Assembly (NCBI GenBank): GCA_024278345.1
Contig: JAJRTK010000336.1
Coordinates: 1-5,330 of the forward strand
Reading direction: 5' to 3'
DNA from: a bacterium
GTDB lineage: Bacteria; CSSED10-310; JAJRTK01
Length of the DNA stretch: 5,330 nucleotides
Positions 174 through 5,330 of this stretch are shown here, in pieces; the first letter of the stretch is position 1, and each line of letters begins with the position of its first letter. The notes beneath the pieces were generated by a model. That model saw only the letters and a list, made by a program, of their open reading frames with translations. It was not told where the DNA came from and made no database searches. The position numbers and the translations under genes were made by a program.

Positions 174-201
174 GTGATACACGACACTTTGATTCTCTCA
201 A
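174..201 (-). promoter_or_regulatory. Possible sigma-70-type promoter for the partial exported-protein gene
   Basis: On the minus strand TTGAGA (201-196, five of six matches to the -35 consensus) is followed after 16 bases by TATCAC (179-174, four of six matches to the -10 consensus). The resulting leader to the GTG at 137 would be about 30 bases. The match is modest and rests on consensus alone. Confidence 0.35.
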
Positions 202-203
202 AG
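187..203. promoter_or_regulatory. 17-base inverted repeat over the possible -35 box, candidate operator
   Basis: CTTTGA-TTCTC-TCAAAG is a perfect 6-base inverted repeat with a 5-base centre. It overlaps the possible -35 box of the leftward promoter, a usual place for a repressor site. It resembles an FNR/CRP-type half-site arrangement (TTGA...TCAA), but the spacing is one base shorter than the FNR consensus, so no regulator is assigned. Confidence 0.3.
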
Positions 204-451
204 ACACAACTTCGAGCGCCACCATCCCCGAATCCCGGACAGTAGCGAGATAGTCAGGCGCCACCAAGGACGAGAGCCGGAGCAGGGCGGAGACACACCC
301 AAGGTGATTCGGCCACCCTCCCCAAAAAACGCGTAGCGTAAAAAAAAGAGGCGTGGGGAACTCGTTGCTTTTCATTGCAACGGGTCCTTGCTAGCTCCCT
401 GGCGAGATCCTGAACCGGAGCGTAGCCGGAGATAATGGCCGCAGGCCATAA

Positions 452-504
452 CCAGCGTTCCCGGCGGAGGTCCGGAGACCGCCTCCGCCGGGTTCCTGCG
501 CTGG
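452..504. repeat. Long hairpin arm with the core shared by both element copies
   Basis: CCAGCG (452-457) pairs with CGCTGG (499-504). After an internal loop, CCCGGCGGAGG (460-470) pairs with CCTCCGCCGGG (482-492) without a mismatch over 11 bp. GCGGAGGTCCGGAG (464-477) and GCCTCCGCCGGGTTCC (481-496) are repeated exactly at 5295-5308 and 5314-5329, which makes this the best conserved part of the element family. Confidence 0.7.
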
Positions 505-541
505 AAGCCCTGGCGCTGGGCCCGAAACTCACTGGGTGGCC

Positions 542-576
542 GGTGCCGAGCGGCAGCGAGAGCTGCCGAAGGCACC
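542..576. other. Two-part stem-loop with GAGA tetraloop
   Basis: GGTGCC (542-547) pairs with GGCACC (571-576), and GGCAGC (552-557) pairs with GCTGCC (562-567). The two stems are separated by an asymmetric GAGC/GAA internal loop and capped by GAGA (558-561), a GNRA tetraloop in the plus-strand RNA. It lies 24 bases past the stop codon of the leftward gene ending at 601 and could protect or help end that transcript. No T-run follows on either strand, so it is not a standard intrinsic terminator. Confidence 0.6.
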
Positions 577-600
577 ACCGATGGACGAGGCCCTTTCCGG

Positions 601-1503
601 CTAATGGAATTTCGTTCCAGGTTCTCCAGTTTTCCTCATTTTCCAGCCAAGGATGAGGAGGAGTAGGGGGAGAAACAACAAAAACGCGGAGCTTCCGTTG
701 GTCGCACCGGAAGGAAGACCTGCCGTCACTGGAGTCGCTGTTGCCCCCGGTGTCGGAGGCCCTCCCATGAGGGTGGCGCTGTATCGGTCGCCCGAAAGCG
801 TGGTGAAGCTGGCTGAAACCGCGAAAAGAACTCCTTCCGCAATCGGGTTGTCCACGGAGAGCTGGAAACTACCGCTGGGTGTAAAGCGTCCGCTCGCCGT
901 ACTGGTGACGTCGATGAACTGCCAACTCGTGGCGTCGGCGGTGAACTGGAAAAGGTCGCAGCGATCACAATTCGGAGCGTTGGGATCCACTGTAATCACG
1001 AGCCCTGTAGCATCGCAACCGGCAAGAGTCCTACAGACCGCCCCATCCACTACGGCCGAGCTTGTCAAGAAGCCACCACGGGTCAAAAACGACATGGAAA
1101 ACTTGGGCGCACGCGACGCTACCAGATAGAGTTCCTGGCCATAAAGATCGCCGTAGAGAGCGTAGAACCGAGACCAGGCGTCTTCCACAAGAACGATGAG
1201 CTGATCCACTGCCGCACGACAGGCCGCGTTTGCCAATGTTTCCGGAAACTGCTGGTCGCAGACGGTATCCAAGGCCATTTCCAGAGCGCTTGTCACTTGC
1301 GAGATGTCTTGCGCCAGAGGGAAGGCGGAGGAGGTGAAGTCCACCGGCTCTCCTCCCGAAACTTCGGCATGGACCGAAAGCTCCAACGTCGGTACCACGT
1401 CATTCCGCTTCATCGACCAAGTTCCTGGGTCCAATGCCATCGCTTCAGAGGCCAGGCAGAAGAGCCCGATGATCCCCCAAAACCGCCTGTGTGAATCCAT
1501 CAT
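601..1503 (-). CDS. Unrecognised exported protein with C-terminal membrane tail
   Basis: I do not recognise this 300-residue family. The chosen start is the ATG at 1503 (an adjacent ATG follows at 1500), because GGGAGGA lies nine bases upstream; a longer reading frame from 1575 has no comparable site. The first 23 residues form a signal peptide (HRR, then a hydrophobic core FWGIIGLFCLA) with a probable signal peptidase I site after AMA (21-23). The exported part contains six cysteines (82, 95, 157, 163, 179, 182), including a CDRC pair, which suggests disulfides. From about residue 200 it is rich in Ser, Thr and Phe and looks like beta structure. A Pro/Thr/Ala-rich linker (about 249-262) leads to a 16-residue hydrophobic stretch (273-288) and a basic end (WKMRK). 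This arrangement resembles tripartite C-terminal sorting or anchoring tails, but no known sorting motif such as PEP, IPTL or GlyGly is present. It is divergent from the small ORF and hemN. Confidence 0.8.
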   Translation of the reverse strand: MMDSHRRFWGIIGLFCLASEAMALDPGTWSMKRNDVVPTLELSVHAEVSGGEPVDFTSSAFPLAQDISQVTSALEMALDTVCDQQFPETLANAACRAAVDQLIVLVEDAWSRFYALYGDLYGQELYLVASRAPKFSMSFLTRGGFLTSSAVVDGAVCRTLAGCDATGLVITVDPNAPNCDRCDLFQFTADATSWQFIDVTSTASGRFTPSGSFQLSVDNPIAEGVLFAVSASFTTLSGDRYSATLMGGPPTPGATATPVTAGLPSGATNGSSAFLLFLPLLLLILGWKMRKTGEPGTKFH

Positions 1504-2165: not shown

Positions 2166-3560
2166 ATGCCAGATACCAGACCGGCCCTTGTCTTCGACCG
2201 GGAGCTCATTCTCAAATACGACAAACCGGGACCGCGATACACATCCTACCCCACCGCGCCGCATTTCCACGAGAATTTCCAGCGCCAAGAGTACATCGAG
2301 GAGATCCAGCGGACCAACTCTATCCACCAGCCGCCGCCAATCTCCCTCTATATTCACCTGCCGTTTTGCCAGTCGGTCTGCTATTTCTGCGGCTGCAACG
2401 TCCATTTCACCAAGGATCGATCCCTGGGAACCCGCTATGTGGAGCGCCTTCTTGCCGAGATGAAGGCACTCTCCCCCATGCTTCATCCTCAACGCCAGGT
2501 CATTCAGATCCATTGGGGCGGCGGGACCCCCACCTTCATCTCCGCCTCGGTCCTAGAACGCTTGTTCAATGGCATCCAAGAGTATTTCAACATTGCCGAC
2601 AATGCAGAGATCGGCGTCGAAATCGATCCTCGAGAGGTCCAACCCGAACATTTCGACCTCTTCGCTCAGTGCGGATTCAATCGCATCTCCATGGGGATCC
2701 AGGATTTTGATCCGAAAGTCCAGGAGGCTGTTCACCGCATTCAGCCAGAGAAGCTCACCCGCTCGGTCATCCGGCGCTGCCGCGAGCTGGGACTGGAATC
2801 CATCAATATCGATCTGATGTATGGGTTGCCCCACCAGACCGCGGAGAGCTTTCAGCGCACGGTCGATCGGATCATCGACATGGACCCGGATCGGATCGCC
2901 GTCTTCAATTTCGCCTATCTGCCCCAGATGATCAAGCATCAGCGAGCATTGCCAAAGGAGGCGCTTCCGGTGCCCATGGAAAAACTGGCGATCCTTGAAA
3001 TGGTCGTTCGGCGGTTCCAGGAGGCAGGCTATCTATTTATCGGGATGGATCATTTCTCTAGACCCGATGACGAGCTGAACCGGGCCCTGGAGAAGCGGAC
3101 GCTCTATCGCAACTTCCAGGGCTACACAACCCAGGCCGGCTGCGACCTTTACGGGATCGGCGTTACCAGCATCGGTCAGGTGGGGCGCTGTTACGTACAG
3201 AACCTCAAAAAGACCGCCGCCTACGAGGCCGCCATCGACCAGCACGGTTTGGCTGTCTTCAGAGGTGTCCAACTCACCGACGATGACCTCCTTCGGCGCG
3301 ATGTCATCACCCGGCTCATGTGCCATTTCGTGCTCTACAAGAAGGAGATTGAGGATCTGCACGGGATCCACTTCGACAAGACCTTTGCCGGCGCAATGGA
3401 AGGGCTCCGACCCATGGAGGAAGATGGCTTGGTGAGCCTGTATTCGGATCGGATCGAGGTCCAACCTTTGGGAAGGCTCCTCGTGCGAAACATCGCCATG
3501 CACTTCGATGCCTATTTGGGGCGGAGTGCGGGGAAGGCCAGGTTTTCAAGGACCGTGTGA
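2166..3560 (+). CDS. hemN: Oxygen-independent coproporphyrinogen III oxidase (HemN)
   Basis: HemN is a cytoplasmic radical-SAM enzyme that oxidatively decarboxylates two propionate chains of coproporphyrinogen III to vinyl groups, giving protoporphyrinogen IX for haem without oxygen. The 464 residues fit the family (about 457 in E. coli). Near the N-terminus KYDKPGPRYTSYPT (residues 17-30) is the signature that separates true HemN from the HemW look-alike. The cluster-binding motif is C68-x3-C72-x2-C75-x-C77, including the fourth cysteine usual in HemN, preceded by SLYIHLPFC. GGGTP (118-122) helps bind SAM, and ISMGIQDF (174-181), INIDLMYGLPHQT (213-225) and the C-terminal RNIAMHFD (441-448) also match. 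All key residues are present and the frame is intact, so it should be active. It is the first of three closely spaced genes. FNR-type control is common for hemN, but no such box is visible here. Confidence 0.96.
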   Translation: MPDTRPALVFDRELILKYDKPGPRYTSYPTAPHFHENFQRQEYIEEIQRTNSIHQPPPISLYIHLPFCQSVCYFCGCNVHFTKDRSLGTRYVERLLAEMKALSPMLHPQRQVIQIHWGGGTPTFISASVLERLFNGIQEYFNIADNAEIGVEIDPREVQPEHFDLFAQCGFNRISMGIQDFDPKVQEAVHRIQPEKLTRSVIRRCRELGLESINIDLMYGLPHQTAESFQRTVDRIIDMDPDRIAVFNFAYLPQMIKHQRALPKEALPVPMEKLAILEMVVRRFQEAGYLFIGMDHFSRPDDELNRALEKRTLYRNFQGYTTQAGCDLYGIGVTSIGQVGRCYVQNLKKTAAYEAAIDQHGLAVFRGVQLTDDDLLRRDVITRLMCHFVLYKKEIEDLHGIHFDKTFAGAMEGLRPMEEDGLVSLYSDRIEVQPLGRLLVRNIAMHFDAYLGRSAGKARFSRTV

Positions 3561-3588: not shown

Positions 3589-4527
3589 ATGGCTAGCCCC
3601 GGAGCGAACGACAACTTCTTGGAGAATGACGCTTTGAACGCGAAACGAAGATTTGCTGCCGCTCGATTCCTTAGGCGAATACTCCACCGCCTTGATGCCG
3701 CGGACCTACGGATACTCAAACTACTTCCGATCCCATTGAAGAGAAAACTCTATCGTGGCCTTTTTCGACGTCTAGCTAGCATTGGAAGAGGCGACGTGGT
3801 GACCGTAGACGGTTTTTTATTGCATCTGCCTCCCAATGCTTGGCAAGTTTTTAGCAACGACGGCCTCGAGCTTGAGGTTCGCTCGCTTATTCGGAAAACC
3901 CTGCAGCCCGGCGATGTTGCCATTGATGTTGGCGCCTACATTGGCTTTCATACGTTGTTGATGGCGAAGCTGGTAGGTGAAGAGGGGGCTGTCCATTCTT
4001 TTGAGCCGGCCCCGGACAATCTCCTCTATCTGCGCAAGAATGTCGATAAAAACGGGTTTGGGAATGTCAAGATCCATCCTTGCGCCGCGGGAACGACGAA
4101 TAGCGAAGTTGAGTTCTATGTTGGTGAAACCAGCACTCTGAACTCTCGGTCTTCCCAGTATAAATGGTCGAAGAAGATCAGAATTAGTGAGAAAAAAATA
4201 GATAACTTGGCGATCGACAGAGTCAAGCTCGTGAAGATCGACGTGGAAGGTTACGAGCTGCAAGTCCTCGAAGGGATGAGCCACACATTGGCGAAAAGCC
4301 ACGATATTTGCCTTATTATTGAATGGAATCCTGATGCCTTGGTCTCCAGTGGGCATCACCCAGACGATCTACCAAAGCTCCTATTGGCGGAAGGGTTTCT
4401 TCTTGCTCCCGCATCGAAGCCGAATCACCTGTTTCACAGCTTGAAGGAACTCCACGTCGAGTGTGGAATGGACCAAAGAAATTACACGAATCTCTTTGCC
4501 GTTCGAGATCCCGCTTTTGTCTGCTAA
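3589..4527 (+). CDS. FkbM-family SAM-dependent methyltransferase
   Basis: This 312-residue protein is an FkbM-type O-methyltransferase; family members methylate hydroxyl groups on sugars, lipids or secondary metabolites. The class I fold is clear: motif I DVGAYIGFHT (113-122) binds SAM, FEPAPDN (138-144) holds the acidic residue after strand 2, and KIDVEGYE (216-223) is the FkbM signature, followed by LIIEWNP. A basic N-terminal region of about 60 residues (many Arg/Lys with Leu) may lie on a membrane or partner. The start is uncertain. ATG 3589 lacks a ribosome binding site, whereas TTG 3634 has GGAG nine bases before it and would remove 15 residues. It begins 28 bases after hemN, so the two are probably co-transcribed. 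Third codon positions are visibly richer in A and T than in hemN or the next gene, which suggests separate acquisition. The substrate is unknown; the adjacent acyltransferase hints at a lipid or envelope glycan. Confidence 0.9.
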   Translation: MASPGANDNFLENDALNAKRRFAAARFLRRILHRLDAADLRILKLLPIPLKRKLYRGLFRRLASIGRGDVVTVDGFLLHLPPNAWQVFSNDGLELEVRSLIRKTLQPGDVAIDVGAYIGFHTLLMAKLVGEEGAVHSFEPAPDNLLYLRKNVDKNGFGNVKIHPCAAGTTNSEVEFYVGETSTLNSRSSQYKWSKKIRISEKKIDNLAIDRVKLVKIDVEGYELQVLEGMSHTLAKSHDICLIIEWNPDALVSSGHHPDDLPKLLLAEGFLLAPASKPNHLFHSLKELHVECGMDQRNYTNLFAVRDPAFVC

Positions 4528-4580: not shown

Positions 4581-5156
4581 ATGATCAAGAAGCTCATTGG
4601 TCAGATTTATCTCAAACTCGCCGGCTGGCGGTGCGTAGGCACTGTCCCGGAAGGGAAGTGCGTCATCATCGCCGCTCCTCACACCTCGAACTGGGACACG
4701 CCCCACATGCTGGCCATAGCCTTCCTCACGGGCGTGAAGCTTTCGTGGATCGGCAAGCACACTCTCTTCAAAAACCGGTGGGCGAACCGGTTCTTCCGCT
4801 GGCTCGGGGGTATTCCCATACGCCGGCATCTTCGCCAAAACGTCGTCCAACAGATGGCGGAGGTTTTCGATGAGCACGAAGAGCTCATCTTGGCCGTTTC
4901 CCCCGAAGGGACGCGCGGGAGACTGGACCATTGGAAGTCCGGCTTCTACTATATCGCCCTTACAGCCAAGGTGCCCATCTGTCTAGGCTATCTGGATTAC
5001 AGCCGGAAAATAGGCGGGTTCGGACCCTGCCTCCATCCCACTGGCAACGTCCAAAAAGATATGGACCGGATTCGGGCCTTTTACATCGACAAGAAAGGCA
5101 AGCACCCGGAGCAGTTCGGTCCAGTGAGGCTCAAGGACGAGCCCGACCTCTCATAG
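4581..5156 (+). CDS. PlsC/LPLAT-type lysophospholipid acyltransferase family protein
   Basis: The 191-residue product belongs to the lysophospholipid acyltransferase superfamily (PlsC-like, Pfam Acyltransferase), whose members move an acyl chain to a glycerol-phosphate or similar hydroxyl at the inner membrane. Motif I is H34-TSNW-D39, the catalytic HX4D. Motif II is GIPIRR (77-82). Motif III is SPEGTR (107-112), which binds the phosphate of the acceptor, followed by WKSGFYYIA. Motif IV starts at VPICLGYLD (131-139). It is shorter than PlsC proper (about 245 in E. coli) and matches the compact group usually annotated simply as acyltransferase, so the acceptor cannot be named and no gene symbol is given. 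The start is supported by GGAAAAG a few bases upstream, a weak site. It follows the FkbM gene by 53 bases with no clear terminator between, which fits one transcript. Codon use is rich in G and C at third positions, like hemN. Confidence 0.9.
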   Translation: MIKKLIGQIYLKLAGWRCVGTVPEGKCVIIAAPHTSNWDTPHMLAIAFLTGVKLSWIGKHTLFKNRWANRFFRWLGGIPIRRHLRQNVVQQMAEVFDEHEELILAVSPEGTRGRLDHWKSGFYYIALTAKVPICLGYLDYSRKIGGFGPCLHPTGNVQKDMDRIRAFYIDKKGKHPEQFGPVRLKDEPDLS

Positions 5157-5186: not shown

Positions 5187-5214
5187 TGGCCGGCCTCGGT
5201 CATGGTACCGGCCA
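5187..5214. other. 7-bp stem-loop downstream of the acyltransferase gene
   Basis: TGGCCGG (5187-5193) pairs with CCGGCCA (5208-5214) around a 14-base loop. It lies 31 bases after the stop codon and could form the 3' end of the hemN-FkbM-acyltransferase transcript. ACCCGAAAAAA rather than a T-run follows, so it is not a standard intrinsic terminator. Its right arm overlaps the GGCCACCC block of the second element, so the two structures would compete. Confidence 0.4.
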
Positions 5215-5330
5215 CCCGAAAAAAGCGCGCAGCGCACAAAGATGTGGGTCCAGGGAGCTGGCTCCCTGGCGTGGGTCTGGGAGCGGCGCTCCCAGCGGAG
5301 GTCCGGAGGCGGAGCCTCCGCCGGGTTCCA
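5210..5330 (+). repeat. Hairpin-rich intergenic element, copy 2, cut by the window edge
   Basis: This copy has the same order of blocks as 310-576: GGCCACCC (5210-5217), an A-rich stretch holding GCGC-GCA-GCGC (5225-5235), GGGTCC (5246-5251), GCTCCCTGGCG (5261-5271), GCGGAGGTCCGGAG (5295-5308) and GCCTCCGCCGGGTTCC (5314-5329). Its hairpins are cleaner: CCAGGGAG-CTGG-CTCCCTGG (5250-5269), CTGGGAGC-GGC-GCTCCCAG (5277-5295) and CGGAGGC-GGA-GCCTCCG (5304-5320). The last can re-pair as GCGGAGG/CCTCCGC (5295-5301 with 5315-5321). From GGCCACCC to GGGTTCC it spans 120 bases, against 186 in copy 1. The partner of GGCCACCC should lie beyond the right edge. Confidence 0.6.

Follow-up and report, generated by a model that had tools for sequence, protein, structure and literature searches.

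Positions 297–592 of the analysed stretch of DNA (5,330 nucleotides, hereafter the window) very probably represent one old copy of a family of non-autonomous DNA transposons (MITEs), here called family A. On this reading the element adds a new family to a known class of element and is not a novel RNA. The family occurs in high copy number with terminal inverted repeats (TIRs) and 8–9-bp target site duplications (TSDs), and this combination constitutes MITE anatomy. For the same reason there is no support for the headline proposal of the initial annotation, in which positions 310–576 encode a hitherto undescribed ncRNA on the plus strand.

Alignment to other copies in the genome places the element, which is of the long type and is drawn on the plus strand with its A-rich tract on the left, beyond the limits originally described, from a left boundary at approximately 297 to the end of the right TIR at 592. 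The left TIR (297–310, plus strand; ACCCAAGGTGATTC, cf. GGCCTTGGTCATCGTTTC) was compared by eye with copies in which this end is intact and is degraded, whereas the right TIR (579–592, minus strand; CGATGGACGAGGCC) is intact and of the type that terminates many other copies. No TSD is recognisable around 297–592, and this together with the degraded left TIR indicates that the copy is old. The left arm of the inner closing stem (310–318, CGGCCACCC) is the inner part of a long terminal repeat that reads GGCCACCC in most copies, and its right arm (534–542) reads GGGTGGCCG. Between them, all on the plus strand, lie an A-rich tract with a small palindrome (ACGCGTAGCGT, 324–348), shown by core motif search and BLAST of family A against family C copies (see below) to begin a core module common to both; a hairpin cassette also found in family C (CTCGTTGC/GCAACGGG, 361–384), with 98.4% of cells paired across 10 copies; a hairpin CTTGCTAG/CTGGCGAG (387–406), in place of which most other copies have AGGGAGCNNGCTCCCT; a hairpin ATGGCC/GGCCAT (435–449), which holds one of two compensatory pairs (G-C to A-T in 2/10 copies); and an 11-bp hairpin CCCGGCGGAGG/CCTCCGCCGGG (460–492), which is present in nearly all copies and is the most widely kept of the family. 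The subterminal hairpin GGTGCC...GAGA...GGCACC (542–576, plus strand) follows; some copies also carry it at the left end as an inverted duplicate, as in loci L018 and L022, where the TIR thereby grows to nearly 60 bp.

A second family A copy, whose TIR (GGCCTCGGTCATGGTACCGGCCACCC) was read directly and whose sequence is that of the 201-bp type described below, occupies 5192–5330 (plus strand) and is cut off by the contig end. The remainder of the window contains genes for a Radical SAM/HemN-like protein (2166–3560), an FkbM methyltransferase (3589–4527) and an acyltransferase (4581–5156), preceded on the minus strand (601–1575) by a 324-aa ORF with no Pfam match, the 3′ end of which is no more than about 10 bp from the element and the predicted C-terminus of which, a hydrophobic stretch followed by basic residues, resembles a sorting signal. 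A different short palindromic repeat, family B (GTTGNGTTCCGCTCCCATCGGCGGC...GTCCGCCGCNACTCGCC), also seems to have a copy at about 1936–1998; searched with a permissive pattern for it, a 735-kb sample of the genome yields 144 sites, many of them chance matches.

The genome of origin is a MAG of 6.06 Mb in 550 contigs (87.9% complete), and genome-wide counts given here rest on searches of it plus the 735-kb sample. Window positions 290–600 gave 55 BLAST matches, and a terminal-repeat pattern allowing one mismatch was found at 679 sites, compared with 50 for a reversed-pattern control. If these sites pair up, the copy number would be approximately 300, probably a few hundred, a figure that is an estimate given that the MAG is incomplete and fragmented and that many contig ends fall in the element. 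Family A TIRs begin GGCCTCGGTCATSG and are often extended to about 24–26 bp through the GGCCACCC segment; set side by side, the common ends read GGCCTCGGTCATCG and CGATGACCGAGGCC, with an inner stem formed by GGCCACCC and GGGTGGCC. Dozens of copies were aligned. The main size class is exactly 201 bp, with perfect TIRs of 24 bp, and the exact 24-bp end GGCCTCGGTCATGGTACCGGCCAC accounts for 53 of 147 distinct ends. Copies of this class are often situated at contig ends (7/24 starts and 5/10 ends in the 735-kb sample), and 12 of the 34 sampled contig ends are no more than 250 bp from a family A copy; the family breaks its own assembly. No match to family A was detected in 20 other genomes (7 from the same phylum and 13 more distant) or in the plasmids and viral contigs searched, and a pattern scan of genome contigs returned at least 13 single hits spread across unrelated taxa, which are taken as chance matches. 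Two TIR pairs among those spaced 0.46–3.3 kb apart (L058 and L157) were read as potential larger elements and rejected, the TIR matches lying by chance inside ordinary genes.

Evidence for transposition comes from the flanks of the copies and from an interrupted gene. TSDs of 8–9 bp border 10 of the 20 non-redundant complete copies for which both flanks are available, against a mean of 0.06 and a maximum of 1 when flanks were re-paired in 2000 shuffles. One copy (G000:C5:335-535) splits an ISL3 transposase gene; removal of the element and one 9-bp duplicate (GTTCAAGCG) in silico restores the frame, which runs on for 197 aa, and the rejoined frame gives one continuous match to PF01610 (E 1.4e-48). 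This comparison of empty and filled site demonstrates insertion for the ISL3 copy, not for the copy at 297–592. Nested insertions among copies were also observed. The right end of the same ISL3 element (locus L050, which holds the family A copy at 335–535) is situated at about 840–870 and seems to adjoin a piece of a family A core (CAAAAATGTGGGTCCAG), which suggests that the ISL3 element had itself inserted into a family A copy.

Searches of the MAG for five DDE families (PF12762, PF01610, PF00872, PF01609 and PF03050) detected no autonomous element with family A TIRs. Among potential partners, IS1595 carries its own TIR (GGCTCTATATGCG), ISL3 is itself a target of the family A element, IS256 and IS66 have no match in the genome, and DDE_Tnp_1 is represented by just one ISAs1-like fragment; none was retained. 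The autonomous element may be absent, belong to another family, or have been lost in the broken assembly.

The fold at 310–576 is real, and its structure exceeds chance. All of the stems claimed in the initial annotation are present in the sequence where they were placed, including the closing stem, the uninterrupted 11-bp stem (460–470/482–492), the GAGA-capped hairpin (552–557/562–567) and further hairpins, and all are included in the minimum-free-energy fold of 300–590. On the plus strand this fold has an energy of −146.3 kcal/mol, in comparison to −117.0 ± 5.7 kcal/mol for dinucleotide shuffles (z −5.1), and 0/200 shuffles were as good, bearing out the assertion that such dense nested complementarity is not expected by chance. 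The minus strand is nearly as stable (−139.6 kcal/mol, z −4.3), as expected for palindromic DNA, and because both strands fold almost equally the strand cannot be chosen from stability alone. A scan of window positions 200–700 for terminators and promoters found none.

It could be proposed that the element carries a functional plus-strand structured ncRNA, the gene for which has been multiplied by riding on mobile DNA, and that the RNA fold itself is under selection. Consistent with this are the plus-strand z score of −5.1, the retention of core hairpins across copies and two element families, and compensatory changes from ATGGCC/GGCCAT to ATGACC/GGTCAT and from CCAGGGCT/AGCCCTGG to CCAGGGCC/GGCCCTGG, and also, seen in the copy sequences themselves, from CTGGGAGC/GCTCCCAG to CCAGGAGC/GCTCCTGG. 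However, folding of the minus strand is almost as favourable, entire hairpin cassettes differ from one copy to another, and the covariance check proposed earlier gave a marginal outcome. Some pairs do change on both sides, namely 2 of the 53 predicted by RNAalifold from ten long-type copies and 2 of the 39 in the named hairpins, but the RNAalifold covariation term was +1.85 and the latter count was equalled by 144/500 shuffles; in the same 39 pairs 90.9% of cells are paired, and the covariation score is slightly over the shuffles, being reached by 14/500. Departures from pairing in four stems of 27 distinct 201-type segments comprise 5 G-T, 6 A-C, 5 double changes and 6 others. Selection on a plus-strand RNA would favour G-T, and 5 against 6, albeit small numbers, gives no sign of it. 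Template switching or conversion within palindromes could also explain both the double changes and the replacement of entire cassettes. In Rfam, the sole match overlapping the element is gntR-DTE (19.7 bits versus a threshold of 63.6), and ten further loci have no match at the gathering threshold. The case for a strand-specific RNA under selection is weak, and we regard this explanation as improbable. Even less credible, to the point of being barely worth entertaining, is the idea that a Y1 transposase (RAYT, or TnpA with IscB) mobilises family A as a REP/REPIN or HEARO/omega-RNA element, although the family is palindromic, dispersed and often located at gene ends, and a link to REP-type palindromes or transposon-associated guide RNAs had been raised in the initial annotation. 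That remark was on the right track regarding transposons and REP-type palindromes. The Rfam search of the window, however, gave no HEARO match even at E ≤ 5, and IscB (NF040563) matches in the genome reach just 44 and 35 bits against a cut-off of 175. The single Y1_Tnp match in the genome (21.5 bits) is likewise under its cut-off of 23, with no RAYT above cut-off, and TIRs with 8–9-bp TSDs are at odds with the single-strand transposition of IS200/IS605, which is not known to generate a TSD.

A second MITE family, family C, has a different TIR (GGGTATCCACGCAAGGCGGGACA) and is represented by copies at L046:1037-1278, L077:1204-1469, L070:1000-1279 and L144:15967-16302. It makes 8–9-bp duplications, of which GAACCACA, CCAGTCGG, GCGGAACG and CCCTGGCAT are examples only, given without a shuffle control. 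The core motif AGCGYACAAAAATGTGGG was found at 75 places, 54 of them A-type, 7 C-type and 1 A+C, and A and C copies align across 47–102 bp of core, with 76–81% identity in the longer matches and E values down to 3e-17; furthermore, locus L014 joins an A-type right half to a C-type left end, which may reflect hybrid formation or nested insertion. It is possible, though we consider it the less likely interpretation, that the palindromic core cassette moves or recombines independently and has entered MITEs of two TIR types, such that shells and core have separate histories. The three contexts of the core motif, the alignable A and C cores and the composite L014 all speak for this; nested insertion, gene conversion or inter-copy recombination could, however, yield the same pattern, and among the copies compared the core alone has no separate boundaries or TSDs. 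Such an origin for the core is compatible with, rather than opposed to, the identification of the element as a MITE. A stronger version, which we think rather unlikely, would have the hairpin core as a modular cassette system with its own function, either as a transposition enhancer in the form of a folded DNA strand or as a regulatory RNA, and with transfer between MITE families that differ in their ends and possibly in their transposases.

For the family A MITE we propose that the GGCCTCGGTCATSG termini, with their inner extensions, serve as predicted transposase binding sites. A DDE-type transposase, the class that we infer, would act in trans to excise or copy the element, and insertion at staggered cuts would give rise to target duplications of 8 or occasionally 9 bp. 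The multi-branched fold would then correspond to the inverted-repeat ends, forming the closing stem, and a core built from GC-rich palindromic cassettes, which copies probably exchange and which the second MITE family shares. A transcript crossing the element would be predicted to fold strongly, as do known bacterial MITE transcripts, and could affect neighbouring mRNA, although a dedicated RNA function of the element is not indicated. What is unusual is the GC-rich multi-hairpin core and the sharing of cassettes between families, which provides a case of hairpin cassettes common to two MITE families within one lineage. More generally, a single copy of a high-copy MITE can mimic a large structured ncRNA in its folding energy, nested stems and few compensatory changes, and ncRNA screens in MAGs need a check of copy number, TIRs and TSDs.

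In comparison to known systems, family A resembles the HEARO/omega RNA of IscB in its large multi-branched fold and its link to mobile DNA, but differs in having TSDs and no Rfam match, in a genome with no IscB above cut-off. It shares palindromes, dispersal and composite arrangements with REP, BIME and REPIN sequences (PMC2817692, PMC3116915); REPs, however, are 20–40 bp in length and are tied to RAYT Y1 transposases (PMC2817692, PMC3116915), whereas family A has long TIRs and 8–9-bp TSDs and its genome has no Y1_Tnp above cut-off. Like ERIC, present in up to 711 copies in Photorhabdus, and Correia (NEMIS) elements, which are small high-copy mobile sequences with base-paired transcripts (PMC10969869, PMC2229807), family A is small and abundant, but the ends of those elements are mostly 5′-TA-3′ (PMC2229807), its own ends and target duplications differ, and it is multi-branched in place of one long stem-loop. 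Closer parallels are QMITE2 of Coxiella, with 7–9-bp repeats, 23–29-bp TIRs and a strongly folding transcript, and MITEAba12 of Acinetobacter, with 1–22 copies (PMC10969869). As in these elements, family A is approximately 200 bp with little coding capacity, TIRs of about 24–26 bp, 7–9-bp direct repeats and a transcript predicted to fold strongly; it is distinguished by its own TIR sequence, a core rich in GC instead of AT, several exchanged hairpins within the closing stem and, relative to MITEAba12, an estimated copy number well above 1–22. Family A thus agrees with published descriptions of bacterial MITEs (PMC10969869, PMC2229807) in its length, its termini, its target duplications and the strong folding predicted for its transcripts.
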